Shown here piece after piece: positions 49,706 through 64,000 of a stretch of 64,000 nt of DNA. Under the pieces are notes generated by a model, which had not been told where the DNA came from, searched no databases, and was given only the letters and a program-made list of their open reading frames with translations. A program made the position numbers and the translations under genes. How positions within the stretch are numbered: position 1 is the first letter of the stretch; each line of letters begins with the position of its first letter. Origin of the DNA: Parachryseolinea silvisoli (GTDB lineage Bacteria > Bacteroidota > Bacteroidia > Cytophagales > Cyclobacteriaceae); contig NZ_JAIOAO010000001.1 in the NCBI RefSeq assembly GCF_021190955.1, positions 2,170,001 through 2,234,000 on the forward strand. The letters are read 5' to 3'.

Positions 49706-51118
49706 CTATTTCACCATAATTTTCAGCTCGAATCCAGACTCCGGACTGTTTGTTCGCAGCATATATACGCCTGCCGGTGAGTTCTCCAGATCGACGGGAT
49801 AATAACGTGCCCCTGCCTCTACCATAGCGCTGAAAATTATTTTTCCTACCAGATCAGAAATTGTAACGAAGGTATTCTGCTTAAGGGGGCTCTTGAAGTC
49901 AATAGAGAATTTACCACCTTCTACAGGATTGGGGTACACGGTCAGACCCGGGGGGAGCTCATCCATCTGCACCATTCGGATGGCCAAAAATTCCATGGTG
50001 CCGTCCAGGTCTGTTTGCTTTAACATGTAATACGATTTGCCGGGTAGGGGATCATGATCAGTATACGCATATTTCTGAACATTGTACCCATTCGGGCCGG
50101 CTGCTACCGTTCCGACATCCGAAAAGGTGCGACCGTCCTTACTTCGTTGGATGGTGAAATAGTCGTTATTCCTTTCGCTGGCTGTTGTCCAATCCAACTC
50201 GACATGTGTCTCGACGGCTTTCGCGGTAAAGGCAAGCAATTCCACGGGGAGCGGCGCGTTATTTCCGGACAAGGTCCACGGAGAAAAGTTTGTTACATCC
50301 GGGACGGTGACACCCGTTGCATTACTGGTTTGACCTGGGAGAGGGTTTTCCCACGTGCCCGTTGTACTATTCCAGCGTTGTGCCTGCAGCGATGTAATGG
50401 TGCCAACCTCCGCCGGGGCAGCCTGGAATGTTAATGTGGCGGTGCCGCTGGGGCCGTCCTTATCGATTTGCCAGAACCTGTCTACAACGTTCGCGCTATT
50501 GTCGACTCCCAGCCGGTTCATGTCGGTGACGGCGACGGGAACCGTGGGATACGGCGTGTTATTCGCGGCGGTGGGATAGGTGGAAACCGTTACGTTCCCC
50601 AGATTTCCGGCTGTTAGCAACACCGTAAAAGGTATATAGACTCCTGTGGACGTTCCGAATGGAAAAACGTGGGCAGAAGTGTTTGTACCGACTATCCACC
50701 GCAGCTGACTGGAATTGTTAGTCTTCTCACTCAAAATATACCCGCCGGTTCGGGTCACCGCAGTCGGCAAAGCATTTTGTATAGTCAGGCGCCGCGAATT
50801 TAAGTCGAGCGCACCTGCGGTAAGGGTTAGCGTATTACTAATGTTGATATCCGACTGCAGGCTTACGCTCACGGCATTATCCGCAATGAAGTTATTAAAT
50901 GTAAGCGTGGTGGACCCGAAGATAAATTGATTGGCCCCGCCTCTGAATGAGGTCGATTGTCCCCCATCGGTAAATACTCCATTGTTAACGAAATCGCCAA
51001 AAAAGGAGATTGTCGCCCCGGGAAACGTCCGAAAATTTCCGGTATTCGTGAATTGGTGCTGGGCCTGGGCAACGGTGCAGACAAATATCAACGCTATGGA
51101 TAACTGTAGGTTTCTCAT
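49706..51118 (-). CDS. T9SS-sorted surface protein, module 1 second gene
   Basis: The 470-aa protein has a signal peptide (QAQ-HQF), a first half of short beta strands (TFNNFIADNAVSVSLQSDI), a middle with VDRFWQIDKDGPSGTATLTFQ and an FN3-like domain from about residue 294 (VELDWTTASERNNDYFTIQRS). It ends with a type A sorting domain (YPNPVEGGKFSIDF ... SPAGVYMLRTN) that targets proteins to the T9SS for export and surface anchoring. It follows the fibre-like gene by 24 bases. The second half is a close paralogue of the protein at 53066. Function is probably adhesion or matrix. Confidence 0.88.
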   Translation of the reverse strand: MRNLQLSIALIFVCTVAQAQHQFTNTGNFRTFPGATISFFGDFVNNGVFTDGGQSTSFRGGANQFIFGSTTLTFNNFIADNAVSVSLQSDINISNTLTLTAGALDLNSRRLTIQNALPTAVTRTGGYILSEKTNNSSQLRWIVGTNTSAHVFPFGTSTGVYIPFTVLLTAGNLGNVTVSTYPTAANNTPYPTVPVAVTDMNRLGVDNSANVVDRFWQIDKDGPSGTATLTFQAAPAEVGTITSLQAQRWNSTTGTWENPLPGQTSNATGVTVPDVTNFSPWTLSGNNAPLPVELLAFTAKAVETHVELDWTTASERNNDYFTIQRSKDGRTFSDVGTVAAGPNGYNVQKYAYTDHDPLPGKSYYMLKQTDLDGTMEFLAIRMVQMDELPPGLTVYPNPVEGGKFSIDFKSPLKQNTFVTISDLVGKIIFSAMVEAGARYYPVDLENSPAGVYMLRTNSPESGFELKIMVK

Positions 51119-51142
51119 CGTACTCGGATTAAGTATGCCCGT

Positions 51143-52918
51143 CTATTTGGTTTCCGTAAACCACTGAACGTCCCGGAAAGTCGCCGTTTCACCGGACGTT
51201 AATGACGTACAATAAATTTCGAAATAGTCGCCAGGCCCTATATCTGCTAAGTAGATTGTCGTCGCAAATTGATACGGATCACTTGCCGTTGTAAGGCGAA
51301 GATCGGTTTCACCATACCGCGTCGTCGTAACGCCATTTTTGACAATGGCGATGGATATGGTTCGGTTGTTAGCGGGCACCGTTATATTACCCGTAATAAT
51401 GGCCCAACCATCACTTCTGTTTACGGGCTGATAGGTGATTCTGTTTGTGCCGATGGTCCATTTCGTAGTGATCGACGTTTGCGTACCGGCAGTCCAGTTG
51501 GCTTTATACCACGTTCCCGCAACCGCAATGCTTGTGGTTGCAACGTTGTTACTGACGTTAATCCGGCTATTGGGATTTCTATCTTGTCCGCCCGAGTTAT
51601 TCTTGATGAATGTATTGGCATCCCTTCCCGACGCCAGCGTAAAATCAAAACCACTCATAAAAGTGCCCGTGTTGTTCCAACTGTTATTGGTTACAAAAAC
51701 ACGAGAGAGGGAGGTAAACGTGGCGGGAACGTAGTTTATTCCAATCTGTCCACCGCTATTGTTATAGAAGCCACAGTTCAAAATGGATACTACTGGATTG
51801 GTCCCCGACAGAAGGTTGATCCCTTTTCCGCAATTGATAAAGTCCGTCTCGGAAATCTTGAGCGAAACCCCGCTTAATCCGCCGGCTGCAATTTCAACGC
51901 CGGCCGTTGTAGCATTCAAAATATCAAGCTCAAAGATCCACACCTCGACATTGCTCAGCGCCACGATGCCCTTAGCAAAACCATCAATGGTACAGTCCTT
52001 TACTTCATAGTACTCATTCGCACTGGTTAGATGAATCGCATCAATACCAGAGACGCCACCGGCATCGAACGCCAGCATTTTAAAATAGGTTTCAGTGGCA
52101 CAGTCAAACATACTACCCGACACGCCTGCGCCGGCTGTAATCGTTGCGGCGCCGTAGCTGCTCCCCTGAATGGTTAGGGGAAACGGCAGATCGATGGTCT
52201 GGGTTGCGTCAACGGTGTAGTCGCCCCCTACCAATCTGACAACAGAAGGCTGTTCCATGTGCACGTCCAAAAATTCTATCATTTCCTCGATTGTCGTCCA
52301 ACTTCCGGTTTCAGATACGTCAAAGACATTATCTACTTTGCCTTCACTTAATTTTATTAGCCAGTCGCCCCCGGAGGCCACATAGGTCTTAGAGACCCAG
52401 CGGAAGTGCTTGGAGATCACCGTACCGTCAATCGTGGAAGCGCCCGCCGGCACCACGTCTACCTGGTGTATGTGCGTACCGACGTTTTTGACCGTGATGG
52501 AAAGGCCGTCGTCGGCAGCAGTAATCGCCGGAAGTGTCAGTGTAATATCGTTGCTTGCGATGATGAACGTTTCGCTTTTAGCGATTGCACCGGTGGCTGT
52601 CTTGACTGTAAGACTAGCCTCACCGAGGTTGATAAACGGAACCCATTGCGTCCCGTTCCAATAATAATACCCATCCGCTACTGCGCCCCCGCTGCTGTAA
52701 ACAAGCATTCCCGAGGGTACAGTGCCGGTCAGTGGCGTGACAGCATTCAGATCGTTTAATGCCACCCGCGGTGGCAGAAATCCTTTATTTGTGCTTTCCA
52801 GCTCCAGAAGCGAATTGGCATCAATCGTCGCGGAATTGTCGCCTATTTTAACCTGCGCATGGACCTGGGCTGTTAAAGAGCATATCAAAAAACTAAGAAG
52901 AAAGATTTTACTTTTCAT
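51143..52918 (-). CDS. Large secreted beta-helix/fibre-like protein, module 1 first gene
   Basis: The 591-aa protein has a signal peptide (VHA-QVKIGDNSA). Its N-terminal 90 residues carry the motif shared with the gene at 54322 (ANSLLELESTNKGFLPPRVAL, split by G-F-L-P-P-R-V-A-L; YYYWNGTQWVPF). A right-handed beta-helix-like middle (about 220-450) has repeated short strands such as YYEVKDCTIDGFAKGIVALS. A C-terminal beta-sandwich ends in TFRDVQWFTETK. The N-terminal motif occurs in Bacteroidota fibre or adhesin proteins. No sorting domain is present, which may be supplied by the partner gene behind it. The start at 52918 is preferred over a Met two codons upstream. Confidence 0.75.
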   Translation of the reverse strand: MKSKIFLLSFLICSLTAQVHAQVKIGDNSATIDANSLLELESTNKGFLPPRVALNDLNAVTPLTGTVPSGMLVYSSGGAVADGYYYWNGTQWVPFINLGEASLTVKTATGAIAKSETFIIASNDITLTLPAITAADDGLSITVKNVGTHIHQVDVVPAGASTIDGTVISKHFRWVSKTYVASGGDWLIKLSEGKVDNVFDVSETGSWTTIEEMIEFLDVHMEQPSVVRLVGGDYTVDATQTIDLPFPLTIQGSSYGAATITAGAGVSGSMFDCATETYFKMLAFDAGGVSGIDAIHLTSANEYYEVKDCTIDGFAKGIVALSNVEVWIFELDILNATTAGVEIAAGGLSGVSLKISETDFINCGKGINLLSGTNPVVSILNCGFYNNSGGQIGINYVPATFTSLSRVFVTNNSWNNTGTFMSGFDFTLASGRDANTFIKNNSGGQDRNPNSRINVSNNVATTSIAVAGTWYKANWTAGTQTSITTKWTIGTNRITYQPVNRSDGWAIITGNITVPANNRTISIAIVKNGVTTTRYGETDLRLTTASDPYQFATTIYLADIGPGDYFEIYCTSLTSGETATFRDVQWFTETK

Positions 52919-52988
52919 AGTCACTAATTCACATGTTCATTTTATAAGAAATCGTAGTGAGCAAAGTTCGGAATCATCAGCCTCTAAT

Positions 52989-53032
52989 AAATCAGTGAAA
53001 AGCTGACCATTGGAAAATCAGGCTTTATCAGG
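52989..53032 (-). promoter_or_regulatory. 44-bp conserved promoter element, copy A
   Basis: Read on the plus strand it contains AATCAG, AAAAGCTGA and ATCAGG at fixed distances, as do copies B and C. It lies 71 bases upstream of the start at 52918. The gene order puts it before module 1 only. The AATCAG and CTGA parts form an imperfect dyad, and the left end overlaps a stem AGGTGTGA/TCACACCT (53030-53057) behind the 53066 gene. Confidence 0.6.
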
Positions 53033-53065
53033 TGTGATAAGTGCATCATTCACACCTATCATTCA

Positions 53066-54274
53066 CTATCGTATTACAATTACCTGCTGAAAGTTTGACT
53101 GAGCAGTGAAGGCCTTTAACATGTATGCCCCGGCTGGTGACCGGCTCAGATCGATGGTGTAAACACGTGTACCCACTGCTACGACGGTACTGAATATAAC
53201 TTTTCCCGCAAGGTCGGAGATTGTGACGGAGGCCTCGCTTTTAAGCTCGCTAATGAAGTCGAGGAACAACTTACCATTTGTCACCGGATTTGGGTAAGCC
53301 TTTAGCCCCGGAGGGCCCTCCTCCAGCTGCACCATCCGGATACCCAAAAACTCGTCGGTGCCGTCCAGGTCGGTTTGCTTTAACCTATAGTACGACTTAC
53401 CCGGGAGGGCGTTGAGGTCTGTGTAGCTGTACTCCTGAACCATGGAACCCGTCGGTCCGGCAGCCACGGTGTCGATATCTACAAAATTGACGCCGCTCTT
53501 ACTTCGCTGAACCGTAAAATAATCGTTATTCTTCTCCGACGCCGTAATCCAATCAAGCTCGACATACTTGTCGACGCCCTTCGCCGTAAAGCTTGTCAAT
53601 TGAACCGGAAGCGGCGCATTATTTCCCGATACGGCCCACGGAGAAAACGTTGTTACACCCGGAACCGTCACGCTCGACGCGCTACTGGTCTGGCCGGGAA
53701 GCGGAGCGTCCCAGGCATTGGTTGTGCTGTTCCAGCGCTGCGCGCGCAGCGTCGTGACGGTGCCTACTTCGGCGGGTGCAGCTTGAAATGTTAACGTTGC
53801 GGTGCCACTGGGCCCGTCTTTGTCTATTTGCCAGAACCGGTCTACCGTGTTCGCGCTGTTATCCATTCCCAGTATATCCACATGCGTTACGGTGGCGGGG
53901 TAGGGTGTATTGTTGGCAGCCGTCGGATAAGTAGAAACCGCCACATGTCCGATGTCACCTGCCGTAACTTGTAAGGTAAACGGGACATATACGGAGCCGG
54001 CCGTGACAAAAGGGAACACATGCGCAGTAGTGTTCGTGCCTATGTTCCACTTCAGCTTACTCATGGTATTCGCCTCGATCTTAATGTAACCACTGGTTCT
54101 GGTAATGGCGTTCGCAGCAGAATTCTCAACCACCACGTACCCGCCATTGGTGATATTAATAAAAGCTCCGTTGTCCAGTATTAACCGTGCCTGGGAAAAC
54201 CCATCAACGCCTGCCAAGGTGATACACAAACCAAAAAGCAAAAACCTATAACTATTGCGATAAGACCTGACCAT
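53066..54274 (-). CDS. T9SS-sorted surface protein, module 2 second gene
   Basis: The 402-aa protein is a paralogue of the one at 49706: same middle (VDRFWQIDKDGPSGTATLTFQ, split after QIDKDGPSG), same FN3-like part (VELDWITASEKNNDYFTVQRS) and same C-terminal sorting domain (YPNPVTNGKLFLDF). It lacks about 70 residues of the N-terminal beta region and begins with a shorter version (LILDNGAFINITNGGYVVVEN). Signal peptide is weakly shaped but present. The gene follows 54322 by 47 bases. Function likely parallel to module 1. Confidence 0.85.
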   Translation of the reverse strand: MVRSYRNSYRFLLFGLCITLAGVDGFSQARLILDNGAFINITNGGYVVVENSAANAITRTSGYIKIEANTMSKLKWNIGTNTTAHVFPFVTAGSVYVPFTLQVTAGDIGHVAVSTYPTAANNTPYPATVTHVDILGMDNSANTVDRFWQIDKDGPSGTATLTFQAAPAEVGTVTTLRAQRWNSTTNAWDAPLPGQTSSASSVTVPGVTTFSPWAVSGNNAPLPVQLTSFTAKGVDKYVELDWITASEKNNDYFTVQRSKSGVNFVDIDTVAAGPTGSMVQEYSYTDLNALPGKSYYRLKQTDLDGTDEFLGIRMVQLEEGPPGLKAYPNPVTNGKLFLDFISELKSEASVTISDLAGKVIFSTVVAVGTRVYTIDLSRSPAGAYMLKAFTAQSNFQQVIVIR

Positions 54275-54321
54275 ATTTTCAATTTATCAATCTGATAACC
54301 CCTCTCCTGCCGACTAAACGA

Positions 54322-55800
54322 TCAATTTATACGGTACCAGTTACTACCATCCGATTGAATCGTTATACTACTGTTGGCAGGAATGGTGGTCACACCCGAA
54401 TTCGTAAAATCCCGATAGCTGCTGATCGTTCGCGCGCCGTTGGTTTGGTTCACGATTATATACATTCTCCGCGCATTACTCGCGGCGGCGGCGGGCAATG
54501 TCACAGAGGGTGTACTGCCATTGTTCAGAATCACTGTATAGTGTGTTGCGTTTAGCGTGATATTCGAGCCCGTTATTGTTATCGCAGAAGCTACCGACCC
54601 ATTGACGTCCAGGGTTGAGTTGGGACTGGTTGTGCCGACGCCCACATTGCCGGTGCCACTGATCCGCATGCGTTCATCTGACGTCGCGAATCCGCCGGCG
54701 AAAAAACGAATAGGCTTTGCCGCGGTACCATTACCAATCACAAAATCATTTCCGGTAGCATAGAGATAGGCCGTGTTGGCGCCGCCCAGGACCGGAAGAC
54801 TGGTGTTGGTATAAGACCCTGAATTAATACCCAGGTCGATGTAATTAGCCGACTCAGTTCCATTGTTCGCCGTGGCGACAACATCCGAGCTGGCACTTCC
54901 GGTGGCGGAGCTATTCTGAACGTTGATCTGAAGATAATTGTCAATGCTACCCTTTCCTGTCATCAGGTTGTAAGACGTGGTAACGCCGGCATCGATCAGC
55001 AATTTCTCGGGATTGGTAGCATTAAAAGAGTTAGATCCCACGGCCATTCTTCCACTTTGCAGGCGCATGATCTCCGACATTCCGTTAATATAGTGGTAGC
55101 TTTTAAACACCATCGGCTCATCGCCATCATCGCCTATGACGAATTCAAACCCACCGCTGTTACTGCTACCGGTAGAGCCGAATTCAAAAAAGTCTGTGCC
55201 TGCAGAGCTTCCCTTGATCCTGAAATTCCCATCCGTATCCGTGTACATCTTTGGTTTATAGAAGTTGGCCGCGGCAGCTTCGAACTGCAAGGCTGAACGC
55301 ACATAGGTCACTTTTTCGGTCGCGTTATCATAATCCGGATATCCCTGCGTTAATCCCAGGGTTCCACGATTTCCGAATTCTAAAAAGGAGTTGTTAAACG
55401 ACTTAAAAATGAGCGCCTTGTCATCGGTGGTCCCGATGAAATTGGTGGCCGGGTTTAATCCCGAATTTCCAGTGAGTGTCCAGGCCGTATTGCTGGCTGT
55501 TGAAAAGACAACCCATATCGTGCCATTCCAATAATAATACCCGGGCACCACATTGTTCGGGGCGCTCCCTGCCGTGGCAGTGTTGTACACCAACAAACTT
55601 GTAGCGGGAGAAGTAATAGGACCGGCGGCATTGGTAGCTGTCAATGCCACCCGGGGAACCAGGAGGCCTTTGCTGGTCGAAGCAACATCGAGAATAGCGG
55701 ACGCATCCGGAGCCGCCCCCGTTGCATTAATACCTACGTTTTGTGCATGCGTATACCGAGCTATCACCAGGGTGATCAGCAAGATTAAAGTCCTTTTCAT
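54322..55800 (-). CDS. Large secreted tail-fibre-like protein, module 2 first gene
   Basis: The 492-aa protein from MKRTLILLITLVIARYTHA-Q has the shared N-terminal motif (AILDVASTSKGLLVPRVALT; YYYWNGTIWVVF), then a repeat-rich beta middle that ends in VGVGTTSPNSTLDVNGSV, and a C-terminal domain with SNWYRIN. The motif V-G-x-G-T-x-x-P-x-x-x-L-D-V is often found in phage-tail-like and adhesive fibres. It therefore looks like a trimeric fibre, but is larger than usual C-terminal peptidase-type proteins. A Met 61 codons upstream is in frame, but the sequence there has no signal peptide. Confidence 0.75.
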   Translation of the reverse strand: MKRTLILLITLVIARYTHAQNVGINATGAAPDASAILDVASTSKGLLVPRVALTATNAAGPITSPATSLLVYNTATAGSAPNNVVPGYYYWNGTIWVVFSTASNTAWTLTGNSGLNPATNFIGTTDDKALIFKSFNNSFLEFGNRGTLGLTQGYPDYDNATEKVTYVRSALQFEAAAANFYKPKMYTDTDGNFRIKGSSAGTDFFEFGSTGSSNSGGFEFVIGDDGDEPMVFKSYHYINGMSEIMRLQSGRMAVGSNSFNATNPEKLLIDAGVTTSYNLMTGKGSIDNYLQINVQNSSATGSASSDVVATANNGTESANYIDLGINSGSYTNTSLPVLGGANTAYLYATGNDFVIGNGTAAKPIRFFAGGFATSDERMRISGTGNVGVGTTSPNSTLDVNGSVASAITITGSNITLNATHYTVILNNGSTPSVTLPAAAASNARRMYIIVNQTNGARTISSYRDFTNSGVTTIPANSSITIQSDGSNWYRIN

Positions 55801-55856
55801 GATGATAATTTTTGGCCCGAGGGCATTCCTCAAGGTATCGAAGGGGCCAATAAAAA

Positions 55857-55900
55857 AAATCAGCAAAAAGCTGATTCGGGAAAAATCAGGCATTAACAGG
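55857..55900 (-). promoter_or_regulatory. 44-bp conserved promoter element, copy B
   Basis: Best-conserved copy: AATCAGC-AAAAA-GCTGATT is a perfect 7-bp dyad with a 5-bp spacer, followed at fixed distance by AAAAATCAGG and a final ACAGG. It lies 57 bases upstream of the start at 55800 and is in the same orientation as copies A and C relative to the gene. Confidence 0.65.
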
Positions 55901-56025
55901 ATATACTGTAAAATATACACGTGGCTATCAAAACCTTTCTGAAAGCTTTTATGCGTGCATACTATTCGTTGTTGCAACAAGGGACAATAGCCCTAACGTG
56001 GACGCACACCATGCATTGCCCCGTC

Positions 56026-59000
56026 CTACTCCTCCTCGACTTTCCGATGTATAAATTCATAGCCCTTTTCCAGGGCAACAATGACGGCTTCCAATTTAAT
56101 GGGTTTACTGACATAATCGTCCATTCCGGCCTGCATGCAGATCTCCCGATCCCCCTGCATGGCATTGGCGGTCATCGAGATAATGTAAGGTTGATGGTAT
56201 TGTTTTGCCCTGATCAGCCGTGTTGCCTCCAATCCGTCCATTTCCGGCATTTGCACGTCCATTAAGATCACGTCATAAAATTGCTCATGAAACCGCTCGA
56301 CCGCCTCCAGGCCATTGGGAGCAATAACGATCTCCATATAGCCAAGTTTGTTCAGTACCCGCGTTGTCAGTTTCTGATTTACCGGATTATCTTCCGCAAC
56401 GAGAATGCGGAGCGGATACCGTTCTGCAAACTCTGTTGAAAGCACCTGTTTCGACTTCTTTTCTTCCACCAGTACTCCCTCGTCACCCGTGCGGAGAACC
56501 GAATGAAGTACACGGCTAAATTGCTGCTGCTTCACGGGCTTATTGAGCACCGCCGCGAATAGGTCGGGGTGGTTCTTTTTGCTTTCATCACCAATAGAGC
56601 TTAGTAATACAACCGGCAAATACGCATGGTTCGCTTTAATCAGATTTGTAAGCTGAACACCATCCATATCCGGCATTTGCATATCCGTGATGACAAGGTC
56701 AAAGTTTTCACTACTCTCCAGGATTTGCAAGGCCTCGGCTCCGGAAGACGCTAATGTCGGTACCAGCTTCCATTGCTCGAGTTGGCCTTTCAAAATGTTA
56801 AGATTGGTTCTGTTGTCATCGACCACCAATACCTTCTTTCCTTCGTTACCGGTGATGTTGGTATGTACATACTGACGGATAGATTCCTGACTCACCTCGC
56901 CTTTTATCGTAAATCCAAACGAAGTGCCGACACCTACTTCGCTTTCCACAGCAATAGAACCACCCATTAATTCCACTAATCGCTGGCTGATCACAAGCCC
57001 TAACCCTGTGCCGCCATACTTGCGTGTGGTGGAAGAATCCACCTGCGAAAAAGCTTTGAACAACCGCGAGAGTTTATCCGGCGGCACGCCGATCCCCGTA
57101 TCTCTTACGTGGAAGGCCAGCTCAATATGGCTGTGATCCATTTTCAACAGCTCGATGCCGACGAAGATCTCGCCCCGGTCTGTAAACTTCATCGCATTAC
57201 CGATCAGGTTGAGCAATATCTGCCGAAGCCGGTGACTATCGCTTATAATTTGTGCCGGGATTTGATAATCGATCTGGTACACAAGGTCAAGTCCCTTTTG
57301 CGCCGCCTTTGTCGAAAAGACATCCATTACCTCTTCCACACACTGCCGTAAATCGAACGTGTGACTATCAAGCTCCAGATTGCCCGACTCTATTTTAGAA
57401 AAATCAAGAATATCATTGATAACCCTGAGCAGGGCTTCGCCGCTGCCCCTGATCGTATCGGCATATTCTTTTTGTTCTGTCGTAAGAGGAGTCTCCGCCA
57501 GCAATGACGCCATACCCAGCACGCCGTTCATGGGCGTTCTGATTTCGTGGCTCATGGTGGCCAGAAATATACTTTTGGCCTGGTTTGCTTTCTCGGCTTC
57601 ACGCCGCGCGTTTTCTGCTTCCTCACGCTGCTTTTCAAGCTCATTGTTGATCTGTTGCAGAAATATCGTTTGTCCCTGCAATTGCTCGTTCAGCGTTTGC
57701 ATATCCTCGGTCTGCGCGACCAATGCCTCTTTCTGCCCCATTATTTCTTCCGTGCTCTTTTGGATCTGCTCTTCCAGCGTCGCTTTCAGTTTTGCGGCAT
57801 GTCGATTTCGCGCCATCACGAACGAAGCGATTCCCCCCACGACAACCACTGCCAGGAGGGTCCGGAACCACCACGTACGCCAGTAAGGCGGTGTAATAAC
57901 AATTTTAACAGCGGCTCCTTGTTCGTTCCAAACACTGCTGTTATTGGCGGCAATCACCCGGAACCTATATTCTCCCGGAGCCAGGTTGGTGTAGGTTGCT
58001 TTCCTTTCGTTTCCGGCTTCGATCCATTCGTCCTGAAATCCCTCCATTTTATACCGGTACCGATTTTTGTCGGCTTCAAGATAATTCAACGCCGCAAACT
58101 CGAACGAAATAACATTGTCGAGATAACTTAGCTCGATCTCTGACGTACACAGTATATTTTTCTTCAGAATCTCATTTTCGCCAATCATGACCGGCTTGTT
58201 CAAGACCCTAAAGCCGGTAATATACACCGGTGGCTTGATTGTATTTACCTTCATGCTATCTGGATGGAACAGCGTAAAGCCTTCAGTTCCACCAAAAAGC
58301 AGCTCACCCGTCGAGAGCTTCGCAGATGCCCACCGGTTAAATTGGCTCCCCGGAAGGCCATCATGAACCGTGTAATTTTTAAAATTATTATGAACCGGAT
58401 CGAAACACGTGATGCCGAAATTCGTACTGACCCACAATTTACCCGCCCCGTCCTCTTGTATACCGACAACAGCTTCGTTCGGCATGCCGTCGTACACATG
58501 ATACGACTTAAACGTTTGCGTCGCCGGATCGAAAAGATTTAATCCGCGATATGTCCCTACCCAGATCCTCTTTTGCGTGTCTTCGAAAATAGTCGTTACG
58601 AAATTATTACTTAATGCGCCCGCTTCGGCACTTGCTTTAAAATGCGTAAAGATGTTCGTCGCCGGGTCATACCGATCTACCCCGTTCCCCTCGGTGCCAA
58701 TCCATACGAGCCCGTTCGAATCTTCCAGTAGATAGGCTATCCCGGAGCTGGCGATTGAATTAGTATCGTCCGGATTATTCGTGAATCGCGTGAAATCGTC
58801 CGTCTTGCGGTTGTACTTGCTAACACCATTGCCCCATGTGCCCACCCAGATGTCGCCGTTTCGCATCCGGCGGATATAAAATACATTGTCATCACTTAAC
58901 GAGTTTCCTTTCGAGGGGTGATGGCGATACTTTTTTACTTTTTTCGTAGCGCGGTTATAATAATTTAATCCTCCACGCCACATCCCCAGCCATAAACCTC

Positions 59001-60264
59001 CGTCGGCATCTTTTTCAATGGCCAGTATTTTCTTATTTGTAAATATATCTCCGTATGACGTAAACTGGTTCGACTTCCTGTCGAGATAGCTCAGCCCGCC
59101 GCCATCCGTAGCAACCCAAAAATTACCATTCTTATCTTCCTCGAAGTGAGACACGACGTCATTACCGATACTATTGGCACTGGAGGGATCGAACTTGTAG
59201 TTATTGAATGAATACCGGTTTTTATCGTAAACATTCACCCCGGCATAGCGCGTTCCCAGCCACAGGCGATCGTTTACATCAATCATCAACACGGAAATGG
59301 TATTGTTGCTGATGCCACTGCGGTCCCGGGGATTATGATCATACAGCGCGAAAGAATCCTCTACGGTATTCATTCCTATTAACCCGCCGTCTGTACCGAT
59401 CCACAATTTCCCGGCAGCGTCCTGCGCGATGTGGTATATGTAGTTATTGGATATACTGGCCGTATTTGCGTCGTCGTGCACATACCGGATAAAGCCCCGG
59501 CCGGCCGGCATTTTTTTATTCAGGCCGTTATCCATTGTACCGACCCATAATGTTTGTTCCTTATCGACAAACAAACATGTTATGGCGTCGCTGCTAAGGG
59601 TGGTCGGATCATCCTTACGACTTAAAAAATTTGTAAATGTTTTTTGATCGGGGTTCAACAAGCTGAGTCCCTTGGCTGTTCCAATCCATAGCTGGTGCTG
59701 ACCGTCTTCAACGATCGCCTTTACAGAACTGTTAACCAGCGACTGGTCGTCGCCTGCTTTATGGAAAAAATGCTTGAATTTTTTCGTTTGGGGATCATAT
59801 AAATTAAGTCCATGCTCAGTCCCCACCCATAAATTACTTTTTGAATCGATAAAGACGCACTTCACCATACCATTGCTAAGGGATCCAGGATCATTCTTAC
59901 GGGAGATATATCGTTCGAACCGATCCGCTTCCCGATTATAAAAATTCAGCCCCTCTTTTGTGCCGATCCACAAATTGTTATTTATATCGCCAACGATACT
60001 GGTAATGCTGTTGTCGCTGATGCTCGTGGTATCCCGAATGTCGTTTCTAAAAACCCGAAAGGTATATCCGTCATACATGTTCAGACCGTCCTCCGTACCA
60101 ATCCAGATAAAGCCGAATTTATCCTGCCCCAGGGCGCTGACGTTGCCTTGTGACAACCCCTCGTTCACGGACAGGTTTTCGAACCTCATAGTATGGATCT
60201 GTGCCGTGCCCGTTCCGGAAAACAGCAAGACCATAACAGCGAAAACAAAACCGAACTTCATCAT
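56026..60264 (-). CDS. Hybrid sensor kinase with periplasmic propeller and two receivers
   Basis: The 1412-aa protein has a signal peptide (TGTA-QIHTM), about 13 propeller blades (WIGT-type repeats from about residue 54 to 611), a Y_Y_Y domain (about 710-790), a membrane helix (about 802-818), a long coiled coil, HisKA with His906 in [12 protein letters not shown], HATPase with [21 protein letters not shown] and GGTGLGL, and two receivers ([12 protein letters not shown] and [12 protein letters not shown]). No Hpt and no HTH are present, so output must pass through another protein. The start is ATG at 60264, four bases within the previous frame. Confidence 0.94.
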
Positions 60265-62033
60265 TTTTTTGCCTTTACCTGGAGTGCCCATTTTTCCAAA
60301 ATAATAACCAATTCTTCGATGTTCACGGGCTTACTGATATAGTCGTCCATTCCCGCATTTATACACTCTTCGCGATCGCCCTGCATGGCGTTCGCCGTCA
60401 TCGCGATAATGATCGGCTGATTGGTAAGGCACAATCGGATCATGCGTGTTGCTTCAAGGCCATCCATCTCCGGCATTTGGATATCCATCAGGATGAGGTC
60501 ATACTCCACACGACTTACTTCCTCCAATACCTCTTTGCCATTCATGACGGTATGGGGTTTATAGCCAAGTTTTCCAAGCACACGGATCGCCAGTTTCTGG
60601 TTCACCACGTTGTCTTCGGCGATGAGTATGGTAAGGGGATATTTTATAGCAAAGTCACTGGACAATTTCTGTTTTACGATCGCCTTTTCTATACCCGCGA
60701 TCTGGCTTTCATGGATGAGCCCGGTTAGAAGGTGTTGGGCGAGAATATTGTGGCGAATAGGCTTCGGCACCAGGGAGCTCAGGATTTCCGGGTGCTGCTT
60801 GCTGCCTTCGTCGTTCACGGCGCTGATCAGGATGATGGGAATCGCCGGATAGAGCATCCGGATAGTTTGCGAGAGCTGCATACCATCCATTTCAGGCATT
60901 TGCATTTCTGCCAACACCAAATCGATTCCTCGCTTCTCCGATAAGATCTCCAGCGCCTGCGCGCCGGATTCCGCCAAAATCGGAACAAGCTTCCAATTTA
61001 GTAACTCTTGCTGGAGAACATTTCTCAGCGTTAGGTTATCCTCTACAATCAATACCTTTTTACCCTCCACACCCATCATCTCGACATGTATCCGCTGAGG
61101 CTCCGTACTGACGCTCACCAAAATATTGAACCGGACTACAGTCCCTTCGTTGATCCGGCTATCGATGGTAAGAGCCCCACCCATGCTGGCCACTAACCGG
61201 TTGCAGAGAAACAGCCCAACGCCGGACCGCTGCGCGCCGGCCTGCGAAATGGAATGCATTAAAAATTTAACCTCGTTCGGGGGGATTCCGATTCCAGAAT
61301 CACGTATCTCAAAACCCAGGTCCAGTATCCCCGCCTCCTCGCCGCGAATCCACACCTCAATATATATCTCACCACGGTTGGTAAACTTGACAGAATTCTC
61401 CAAAAGATTCATCAGCACCTGCCGTAAGCGAGCGTCATCTCCCACAACATGCGCGGGTATCTTGTTCTCCAGGCGATAAATCAATTCCACATCCTTCTGC
61501 GCCGCCTGGCTTGCAAATACATCAAAGACCTCTTCTATTGCATTTCGCAGGTTAAAATCCTTATTGGAAAACTCATCTGAATTGGACTCAACTTTCGAAT
61601 ACGCCAGGACATCGCTCAATAGAATATCGTTGATAACCGTTAACAGATTCTCGCTACAGCTTCGTATCGTTTCGTTGTACTCTACCTGCTCGGGTGTAAG
61701 CGGTGTTTCTGAAAGCAACGAGACCATCCCGATAACACCGTTCATGGGCGTCCGGATTTGGTGATTTATCGTGGACAGCAACTTCTTCTTCGCGGAATCA
61801 ATTTCAGACGCTTTTTCGAGCGCCTTCTTTTCCCGCTCAGCGGCGTAGGACCAAAGCTCATTCTTTTCCACAAGCAAACGCTGAAGCTCCAATTTCTCAT
61901 GCGTCAGTTGCTTTATCCTTCTCCAGAAATACACCAGCACTAAAAGTACAAACACGACTATGGTAGTCACTTTCGCCCACAGCGGTAACACCATAAACAC
62001 GTCGATTGTCTTTGGAAAAGTATACGCCAGCAT
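60261..62033 (-). CDS. Hybrid kinase with membrane helix and two receivers, partly degenerate
   Basis: The 590-aa protein has one N-terminal helix (about 17-38), a short coiled coil, HisKA with His91 in [12 protein letters not shown] (Asn in place of the usual Ser before His), and HATPase with [10 protein letters not shown] and [11 protein letters not shown]. The ATP lid is shortened: F-Q-V-D-x-S-x-x-R-x-Y-G-G-T of the neighbour is reduced to [13 protein letters not shown]. The first receiver has [11 protein letters not shown], so the expected Asp is Glu376. The second ([12 protein letters not shown]) is normal. About seven residues are inserted after the HisKA helix (LSDVLAY). A paralogue of the C-terminal half of the next gene. 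Starts with TGATG overlap. Confidence 0.93.
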
Positions 62034-62659
62034 CACAAGTCACCTGTTTTTTTTCCTTCTATTGTAAAATTAAAACCTACCAGAAAATACCGTCCCGCAT
62101 TCTGAAGATTGAAGCCATAAATAGGAAATGTCCAATTTCCGGATTCAAAGCCGATAAAAGCCCCCGGGTCTGCCACAGTGTCGCCTTGACGCGTGAAATG
62201 CGTCAGCTGCACGCTGGGTCCGAAGTAGAACCAGCGCACCGGGATATAACCTAGCTCTGCCCAGCAATACAAAAAATTCGCATCGCTGGTCTGGCTCGAT
62301 AGCGTACATTGAGATTGGGAAGAAAAGAACCAGTCGCGGTATTCACCGGTCGTCAAAAAACCCAAAGACCCCCCTTTCAGTTCCCCTGCTACAGCACCCA
62401 CGAACGGCGTAAGGGTGTAAGAACCGAATTTATTCTCTTGCTCAAACGTACGCCCGACATTGAGCGAGTATGTATCGATCTCCTCGTAATTAAAGCGGGC
62501 CTCGGCATACCAATTTTTCGCATTCTGAAAATGGACGACGGGCATAAAGGTCGCTGTATTCTTATCCCTCCAATAATATTGCTCAAGACCGGTTTGGGCA
62601 AATGAGTGTATCTCCTGCGCAAAAACAAAAGCGGCAACAAGCAATACTTTATTTCTCAT
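62033..62659 (-). CDS. Outer-membrane beta-barrel protein in the kinase operon
   Basis: The 208-aa protein has a signal peptide (SFA-QTGLEQY) and mature beta strands such as AEARFNYEEIDTYSLNVGRTF and FGSYTLTPFVGAVAGELKGG, each split by polar turns, and an end close to VGFNFTIEGKK. It should form a barrel of about 10 strands. It overlaps the frame of the membrane protein upstream (11 bases) and couples to the kinase with TGATG. A role as outer-membrane receptor or channel of the signalling system is possible (inference from operon). Start at 62659 is ATG; the track TTG at 62665 is less likely. Confidence 0.75.
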   Translation of the reverse strand: MRNKVLLVAAFVFAQEIHSFAQTGLEQYYWRDKNTATFMPVVHFQNAKNWYAEARFNYEEIDTYSLNVGRTFEQENKFGSYTLTPFVGAVAGELKGGSLGFLTTGEYRDWFFSSQSQCTLSSQTSDANFLYCWAELGYIPVRWFYFGPSVQLTHFTRQGDTVADPGAFIGFESGNWTFPIYGFNLQNAGRYFLVGFNFTIEGKKTGDL

Positions 62660-63197
62660 TGTCAATTATTATTAGCTCAGATGTGGATAGTTTATTCAGC
62701 AACAAAATATCCTTCAGATGAGGGTTCCAATAAAAAAGCAGTACATCAATCGGGCGCCATAAAAGCACCCAGCTAAAGATATCCAGGCTATTGCCAAACG
62801 CTGTGTGGAAATGATTCTCCGGATCTAACAAAAGCGGCACGAACCCCTGGCATACAAGCACGACCACCAGACTAACAATCAGTAACAGCCAGCTTCGGCT
62901 TCTGAATTTTTTAAACTCCTTCTCCCGTATCTGTTTCTTTTGCAGGTAATGTCGCCTGATGGCATACATCAAAGGCGCCGCAAACTGCTTATCAACTTCG
63001 CTCGTGCATGTAAACTTATAAAATATGGCCGTATAGCGTTTCGCAGGAATTACACACGTTTTGATATACTCCTCCAACTGATGACTCAGCTGACGCTTAT
63101 AAATTGGAGCGGGATCATGAATATTAAAATAACTATTGATTGTTTGCCTGTCAACGGTAAGAAAAATATCAATTTTATCGAGTACCTCATCTTCCAT
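62649..63197 (-). CDS. Inner-membrane protein of unknown function in the kinase operon
   Basis: The 182-aa protein has no signal peptide; an N-terminal soluble part of about 100 residues (DKIDIFLTVDRQTINSYFN), basic helix IRRHYLQKKQIREKEFKKF, and two membrane helices (about 103-122 and 137-158). The C-terminus returns to the cytoplasm. No family recognised. It lies between the Hpt gene (54 bases downstream of it) and the barrel gene (11-base overlap), so it should belong to the same unit. It could link the phosphorelay to the membrane or act as a partner for the kinases. Confidence 0.65.
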   Translation of the reverse strand: MEDEVLDKIDIFLTVDRQTINSYFNIHDPAPIYKRQLSHQLEEYIKTCVIPAKRYTAIFYKFTCTSEVDKQFAAPLMYAIRRHYLQKKQIREKEFKKFRSRSWLLLIVSLVVVLVCQGFVPLLLDPENHFHTAFGNSLDIFSWVLLWRPIDVLLFYWNPHLKDILLLNKLSTSELIIIDNEK

Positions 63198-63251
63198 ATA
63201 TATACAAATACTGTCGTCCTCTGCATCATTGTTTTAAGGGCGGCTCGGCGG

Positions 63252-63593
63252 TTATGCATTTTTAAGACTTTGAACGATGCCTTTACATATTCTATTTAAC
63301 AACGTAATGTTCGCAGGATCGGTGACATTAACTTTTAACTTACTCACGGTGTCGAGGAGCTCGACGTCTGCCAGCATCTCGAGTGTAGGCTTGATTTTAT
63401 GGCATACCCCCTGAAAAAGTCCTGCGTCATTGCGCTGCGACGCTTCTTGCAATACTTGCTGCATTTCCACAAGGTTATCGATCATCGAATCAATCAGCTC
63501 TTGTTTAAATTCTTCATCGCCGTCTGTGTACAAGTCAAAGTCAATAAAAAGGGTTCTTGACACAGAAGATCCGGAAATTTCATCTGGAATCAT
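63252..63593 (-). CDS. Stand-alone histidine phosphotransfer (Hpt) protein
   Basis: The 113-aa protein is predicted to be a helical bundle with the Hpt motif VCHKIKPTLEML; the phosphorylated residue would be His65. This C-H-K-I-K-P form is usual in Bacteroidota Hpt domains. It carries a phosphoryl group between receiver Asp residues. Both hybrid kinases in the operon lack an Hpt domain and should need one. The start is ATG at 63593; a TTG at 63617 is possible but less likely. First gene of the operon; element C lies 49 bases upstream. Confidence 0.85.
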   Translation of the reverse strand: MIPDEISGSSVSRTLFIDFDLYTDGDEEFKQELIDSMIDNLVEMQQVLQEASQRNDAGLFQGVCHKIKPTLEMLADVELLDTVSKLKVNVTDPANITLLNRICKGIVQSLKNA

Positions 63594-63641
63594 TTGATAA
63601 GTATTTCGGTATTCCAAAGGTCTCCATTTGACGGATTGGAG

Positions 63642-63685
63642 GAATCAGGAAAAAGCTGATTTCCGAAATATCAGGAATGCTGACA
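63642..63685 (-). promoter_or_regulatory. 44-bp conserved promoter element, copy C
   Basis: Has AATCAG-x-AAAAAGCTGATT and ATCAGG at the same distances as B; the last ten bases differ. It lies 49 bases before the Hpt start at 63593. Sitting in front of the signalling operon, it suggests autoregulation. The remaining gap up to 63883 holds no other convincing feature. Confidence 0.6.
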
Positions 63686-63883
63686 GAATCAAAAAAAACC
63701 GAAAACACGAATATTTGGATTGCCTGTAATGTCCCAACGGCGTGTACGGCCGGCCTATAATTTGGTAATCGCCCACTTCACTTGATTTAACACTTATTGT
63801 ATCACCCAACATTAAACGTGTTAAAAAAACACAAACAAACGCCCCCGCAGCGGTGTGGCTGGATAGTGTGCGGACACTATTCA

Positions 63884-64000
63884 CTAAATGAGCTTATGCT
63901 CTATCGCATACTTTGTCAGCTGCGCTGTATTCGAGAAACCCATTTTGTCCTGAATGTGCAGCTTATGCGTTTCAACCGTCTTTATGCTGATGAAAAGCTC
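63884..64000 (-). CDS. LuxR/FixJ-type response regulator, C-terminal HTH end only
   Basis: The last 38 residues before TAG (63884-63886) read ELFISIKTVETHKLHIQDKM followed by a C-terminal QLTKYAIEHKLI, the second half of a LuxR-type HTH (recognition helix T-V-E-T-H-K). The N-terminal part lies outside the window. It is on the same strand as the Hpt operon, about 290 bases upstream, and could be the receiver protein that takes the phosphoryl group from Hpt, but the receiver domain cannot be seen. Confidence 0.85.
   Translation of the reverse strand, partial: ELFISIKTVETHKLHIQDKMGFSNTAQLTKYAIEHKLI

Follow-up and report, generated by a model that had tools for sequence, protein, structure and literature searches.

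A three-half-site promoter element shared by a putative phosphorelay operon and two surface-protein modules in Parachryseolinea silvisoli, and its association with a family of LuxR/NarL-type regulators

Genes and features of the locus

We analysed a 64,000-nucleotide stretch of the genome of Parachryseolinea silvisoli, a member of the Cyclobacteriaceae (assembly GCF_021190955.1, contig NZ_JAIOAO010000001.1, positions 2,170,001 to 2,234,000; hereafter the window, whose numbering is used for all plain coordinates), and focused on a short DNA element that stands before three of its operons. One of these encodes a protein resembling histidine phosphotransfer (Hpt) proteins together with two hybrid histidine kinases, and the other two, modules 1 and 2, each consist of a fibre-like gene followed by the gene of a protein sorted by the type IX secretion system (T9SS). 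On the minus strand the order is PAS gene, PAS kinase, regulator, element, Hpt-like gene, the genes of a 182- and a 210-amino-acid (aa) protein and the two hybrid kinases, after which come the element with the module 2 pair and then the element with the module 1 pair. The features are listed below in that order, where G000 denotes the own genome and G001-G006 the other genomes of the genus:

66578-67333 (past the window end), minus strand: PAS gene
64641-65879 (past the window end), minus strand: PAS histidine kinase, adjoining the regulator
63884-64000, continuing to 64540 past the window (L006:884-1540), minus strand: LuxR-type response regulator (REC + GerE), candidate binder of the element
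63615-63674, minus strand: element and promoter of the Hpt operon, CTGATA-N7-AATCAG-N7-CTGATT-N23-CTTTG; conserved ahead of Hpt in G001-G005
63252-63617, minus strand: Hpt-like protein, 121 aa from TTG or 113 aa from the ATG at 63593; no Pfam match
62649-63197, minus strand: 182-aa protein of the Hpt operon; no Pfam match; 76-93% identity in five sister genomes
62033-62665, minus strand: 210-aa protein of the Hpt operon; no Pfam match
60261-62036, minus strand: hybrid histidine kinase, 591 aa; HisKA, HATPase_c and two receiver domains
56026-60291, minus strand: hybrid histidine kinase, 1421 aa; Reg_prop propeller, Y_Y_Y, HisKA, HATPase_c and two receivers
55830-55889, minus strand: element and promoter of module 2; degenerate -7 box (ACCTTGA)
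54322-55800, minus strand: module 2 fibre-like protein, 492 aa; no Pfam match
53066-54274, minus strand: module 2 type IX sorting-domain protein; Por_Secre_tail
52962-53021, minus strand: element and promoter of module 1
51143-52924, minus strand: module 1 fibre-like protein, 593 aa; no Pfam match
49706-51118, minus strand: module 1 type IX sorting-domain protein; Por_Secre_tail

Judged from the genes alone, the domain types of a phosphorelay (hybrid kinase, putative Hpt and regulator) are all present at the locus. The alignment of the 182-aa protein (A2) holds four of the five sister genomes, and the predicted structure of the 51143 protein had a mean predicted local distance difference test score (pLDDT) of 39.9 and was not used.

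A common element precedes the three operons

The first-pass annotation of this DNA had described a common core before the three operons, and we confirmed that this observation is real. The core AATCAGNNAAAAGCTGANNNNNGNAANATCAGG was found at 52990-53022, 55858-55890 and 63643-63675 with 0 mismatches each; 24 of its 33 positions are invariant among the three copies, and at up to 3 mismatches it was absent from all of 100 dinucleotide-shuffled versions of the window. All three copies have a single orientation, each 5' of minus-strand genes, and lie 71, 57 and 49 bases from the ATG codons at 52918, 55800 and 63593, in agreement with the range of 49-71 bases given in the annotation. The genome-wide search that it had proposed (7,945,725 bases in 13 contigs, up to 3 mismatches) returned just the three window sites.

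Read on the gene strand, the unit CTGATT-N7-AATCAG-N7-CTGATT-N23-CTTTG, namely three alternating half-sites 13 bases apart followed by N23 and CTTTG, describes the element more aptly than the originally reported core. This longer pattern revealed extra copies in the own genome at C6:1088270 and C6:1583854 (2 mismatches each) and at C6:1040708 (3 mismatches), and a second Reg_prop hybrid kinase gene elsewhere in the genome is also preceded by the element. A profile built from 35 sites, in which the E-values of in-genus sites used for its building are high by construction, located a weaker site at 67363-67422, past the window end (E 0.0024), 30 bases before the PAS gene. A weak site stands at this same distance before the PAS gene in G002.

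The copy at G000:C6:1583854-1583913 lies at the start of the gene of a 328-aa protein (L150:8870-9913) that matches the Pfam family Neur_chan_LBD, the ligand-binding domain of neurotransmitter-gated ion channels, at 1.2e-07, and a partial match at G000:C5:134919-134944 (L265) stands 89 bases before a TonB-dependent receptor gene.

Promoter anatomy of the element

In 17 of the 19 genus sites, which were gathered without requiring TTTG, this tetramer starts 24-25 bases past the last half-site, the two that deviate being module 2 of the own genome and module 1 of G002, and the consensus over 47 sites is cAccTTTG. Bacteroidota sigma-A promoters also have a -33 box, TTTG. Given that TTTG occurs near this place (offsets 0-6 past the last half-site, the half-site interior being excluded from the scan) in just 1 of the 47 sites, the promoter likely depends on an activator. 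The CTTTG box of the element resembles the Bacteroidota -7 box, for which a study on sigma-A in a flavobacterium gives TAnnTTTG (PMC9723704).

Exact AATCAG-N7-CTGATT places number 27 in the genus; 15 were counted as sites, and the remaining 12, with no TTTG at the right distance, were discarded. A scan demanding TTTG at 23-25 recovered 14 of the 15 counted sites and 0 of the 12 discarded places. At 43 of the 47 gathered sites an open reading frame (ORF) begins within 120 bases, under a generous rule that accepts ORFs of at least 80 aa or running off the stretch.

Conservation in sister species and range in the family

We searched for the Hpt operon through its 210-aa protein within the seven genus genomes (own included) and found it in six, all of which (the own genome and G001-G005) carry the element before Hpt. 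Fibre-like genes in G001-G005 are likewise preceded by the element, and the arrangement first noticed in one genome, with the element before relay and surface-protein genes, is thus kept in five sister species. The remaining genome, G006, gave no match to the 210-aa protein, the only protein of the operon for which it was searched; the closest regulator homolog in it is 31% identical, and it has no profile site better than E 0.12. The element also precedes a third surface module in G002, and genes elsewhere in G001, G003, G004 and G005 that encode relatives of the 54322 protein have it too; the G004 relative has Peptidase_S74, a domain known from trimeric fibres, near its end. As a separate observation, G004 and G003 hold a second copy of the Reg_prop hybrid kinase (L032:1006-5181 and L033:670-4869; 46% identical), which follows the module 1 genes closely and is encoded on the other strand.

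The search of related genomes suggested by the annotation was then carried out over the family, using three half-sites plus CTTTG with 23 positions scored and up to 3 mismatches. This pattern was present in 39 of 390 family genomes, distributed across 13 of 84 genera, compared with one genome for the reversed control. At up to 2 mismatches, 390 genomes drawn over the order yielded five with the element, all belonging to the own family. Downstream genes were looked at for part of the 63 family-scan places and part of the profile hits, and included those for secreted proteins, a receiver-Hpt fusion, PAS and hybrid kinases, fibre-like proteins and a TonB receptor. The range is therefore wider than first supposed, extending to other genera of the family and to other sensor genes. 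Fifteen further profile hits were examined, of which 14 lie outside ORFs of more than 100 aa and are followed by a gene after 23-98 bases, and one lies inside an ORF.

Two sets of matches were set aside. Nine regulator-less genomes with the pattern at 3 mismatches only (G051, G092, G168, G308, G328, G347, G350, G419 and G433) probably reflect chance, and a shorter family pattern, present in 33 of 390 genomes (reversed control, 2), has many extra-genus matches that fall inside open frames and look like chance.

The Hpt-like protein

The Hpt-like protein, which had no match in Pfam, was modelled as a helical bundle (mean pLDDT 84.4). The three best PDB matches of this model are all to one HPT domain at weak E-values of 0.27-0.6, followed by FliS (E 0.74) and HptB (E 1.1), and the motif CHKIK is kept in all six aligned orthologs. 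A relative of the Hpt-like protein (46% over 106 aa) occurs in G357 joined to a receiver domain (L152:16892-17602), and the element stands 60 bases upstream of this fusion gene. A 138-aa protein in G405, with 26% identity and without CHKIK, was not counted as Hpt-like.

A regulator family associated with the element

The protein encoded upstream of the Hpt operon at 63884-64540 contains Response_reg (2.9e-26) followed by GerE (2.3e-18), and is accordingly of the LuxR/NarL type. At a threshold of E <= 1e-55, its homologs were found in 55 of the 390 family genomes, giving 72 matches that were inspected with up to 2 kb on each side (less at stretch ends). The element (up to 4 of 23 mismatches) lies within 2 kb on either side of 19 of the 72 matches, whereas 40 scrambled patterns gave 0 of 72 each near the same matches. 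Thirteen of these 19 elements are 127-236 bases downstream, four are 654-667 bases downstream, one is upstream (G301) and one is doubtful, so that 17 of the 72 matches have the element within 700 bases downstream. The doubtful case (G422, L232; 4 mismatches, without the half-site pair) was kept in the 19 but dropped from the tree labels (18). Regulator homologs of 53-56% identity stand directly upstream of the element in G410, G156, G293, G340 and G403.

Co-occurrence pointed the same way, with the regulator present in 18 of 22 genomes that carry the element at up to 2 mismatches versus 37 of 368 without it, and in 26 of 39 versus 29 of 351 at up to 3 mismatches. On the regulator tree, the element label clusters, with 11 changes against a shuffled mean of 16.2 and 0 of 500 shuffles as low, a clustering to which near-copies contribute. 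These results suggest that the LuxR-type regulator at 63884 is the best candidate binder of the element, the probable binder being a regulator of its family.

A homolog of the PAS kinase lies upstream on the same strand in 54 of the 72 regulator matches; among the remaining 18 are some whose stretch offers little space. Because of this pairing, the PAS kinase is probably the regulator's first partner. In many kinase-regulator pairs, about 350-480 bases separate the two matches, and in L071 this gap contains a 122-aa ORF (L071:7118-7486) that may be a single receiver domain. A paralog of the regulator has one TAG stop inside the matched stretch in both G003 (C6:2113124-2113774) and G005 (C29:97075-97725).

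Several points weigh against assigning the element to this regulator. At up to 4 mismatches, 53 of the 72 matches lack the element (some have short flanks), and they include close homologs of 65-67% identity (G140, G136, G166 and G301). Good sites occur with no regulator at threshold in G141, which is complete, and in G459, G483 and G485; G459 has a 46-residue piece near a contig end that is 83% identical to the regulator's DNA-binding end. The genomes compared are related, which inflates the P values, and the -7 boxes of module 2 in the own genome and of module 1 in G002 are imperfect. Finally, the own genome has three regulators of the 63884 family, the two paralogs being at G000:C7:1200946 and 1210293, and a weak profile site lies 150-160 bases after one paralog (G000:C7:1210293), so sequence does not fix the binder among them. 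Regulator groups B and C, for which the palindrome scan was empty, were not accepted as clean negatives given this same profile site. The proposal that the 63884 regulator binds the element thus holds as to a probable binder of this family, by comparison of genomes, but not as to which member it is.

A proposed regulon and competing explanations

The sequence comparisons show the element itself, the constancy of its geometry, the conservation and the association with the regulator family. Taken together, these findings lead us to regard the element, with good though incomplete confidence, as the operator and promoter of a two-component regulon governed by a regulator of the 63884 family. In this regulon, the PAS histidine kinase (64641-65879) would partner the LuxR/NarL-type regulator (63884-64540), and the phosphorylated regulator would bind the three alternating half-sites at a fixed distance 5' of the -7 box. 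The bound regulator would then presumably activate transcription rather than repress it, in a manner dependent on phosphorylation. Its predicted targets are of three kinds: the regulator's own PAS cluster, as suggested by the weaker site that lies 30 bases ahead of the PAS gene in both G000 and G002; other sensors, comprising the Hpt operon with its two hybrid kinases and the second Reg_prop hybrid kinase encoded at another place in the genome; and surface proteins that are fibre-like or T9SS-sorted. Besides being such a target, the Hpt operon might provide a second input to the same regulator.

An extension of this regulon, which we put forward as speculative and rather unlikely in its full form, is a sensor-recruiting loop. 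The regulator, triggered by the PAS kinase, would turn on further sensors (Reg_prop hybrid kinases, PAS and receiver kinases, and the free Hpt protein), phosphate would return to it via Hpt, and the cell would in this way commit itself step by step to the display of fibre-like and T9SS-sorted proteins on its surface.

The strongest competitor holds that the hybrid kinases and Hpt of the locus are the main activators of the 63884 regulator, which in turn drives the relay and both modules. The Hpt promoter does contain the element, and the Hpt operon has no output regulator inside it, the nearest being the 63884 regulator directly upstream in G000 and G002. However, the regulator has its own PAS kinase, paired with it in 54 of 72 matches, and the Hpt operon occurs in G001, G003, G004 and G005 without such a regulator beside it, the nearest homologs there lying elsewhere (34-46 kb off in G003 and G004). 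We consider this closed circuit possible but somewhat less probable than its negation.

Another transcription factor, encoded elsewhere, might instead bind the element, with the regulator family as a mere neighbour or target. The 53 of 72 element-free regulator matches and the 4 of 22 good-site genomes without a regulator at threshold would fit such a factor, but adjacency in several genera together with co-occurrence is hard to obtain from neighbourhood alone, and scrambled patterns gave 0 of 72; we judge it unlikely. A role after the start of transcription, as an RNA hairpin or terminator-like leader, appears very improbable, even though the half-sites are able to pair and the fold of the module 2 leader surpasses 199 of 200 shuffles (z -2.71), given that folding is unremarkable for module 1 (z 0.14) and Hpt (z -1.26) and that the element lies 5' of the -7 box and is therefore not expected in transcripts from that promoter. 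A repeat, whether mobile or dispersed, to which several copies per genome might point, is rejected as extremely unlikely, since the copies are few, have unlike flanks, are kept at corresponding genes of sister species and, by the generous rule given above, have an ORF start within 120 bases at 43 of 47 sites; neither a mobile repeat nor many copies unconnected to promoters, which the annotation had named as refutations, were found. In the sequence comparisons the element behaves like part of a promoter and not like a mobile repeat.

If the proposed regulon is true, it provides a regulator, an operator and a testable list of targets in little-studied soil bacteria, and an entry point to the control of surface fibres and type IX cargo, with one two-component system apparently turning on the genes of others. 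If the recruiting loop were also true, a signalling hierarchy with a three-half-site operator would be common to several genera of the family.

Relation to known systems

We searched the literature for the motif or regulon and found no description, most subscription journals lying outside the coverage. The kind of system is known, whereas neither this regulon nor its operator or range seems to have been described in the literature that could be searched. One of the closest likenesses is to NarL/LuxR-type (GerE) regulators, which share the receiver plus GerE architecture, the adjoining kinase and the apparent control of the own cluster. The arrangement of NarL sites is 7-2-7, in contrast to the three alternating half-sites 13 bases apart found here. 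Hybrid two-component systems of Bacteroides combine sensor kinase and DNA-binding domain in a single chain. Those of polysaccharide loci (cf. PMC3243724) resemble the present kinases in joining a Reg_prop and Y_Y_Y sensor, a kinase and a receiver in one chain, but neither hybrid kinase here (56026-60291 and 60261-62036) has a DNA-binding domain in Pfam at E 0.01.

With Bacteroidota sigma-A promoters (PMC9723704), the element's promoter shares TTTG at a fixed place, and differs in that the first T of TAnnTTTG is mostly replaced and that TTTG is rare at the possible place of a -33 box. In Porphyromonas gingivalis, the abstracts of three reports (PMC8050853, PMC8265659, PMC4800418) describe a PorX/PorY-SigP system in which secretion-machine genes are under PorX and a sigma factor. 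Both that system, as described there, and the one proposed here tie a two-component system to the type IX route, but here it is the sorted-cargo genes that have the element, and the candidate regulator is of the LuxR type.

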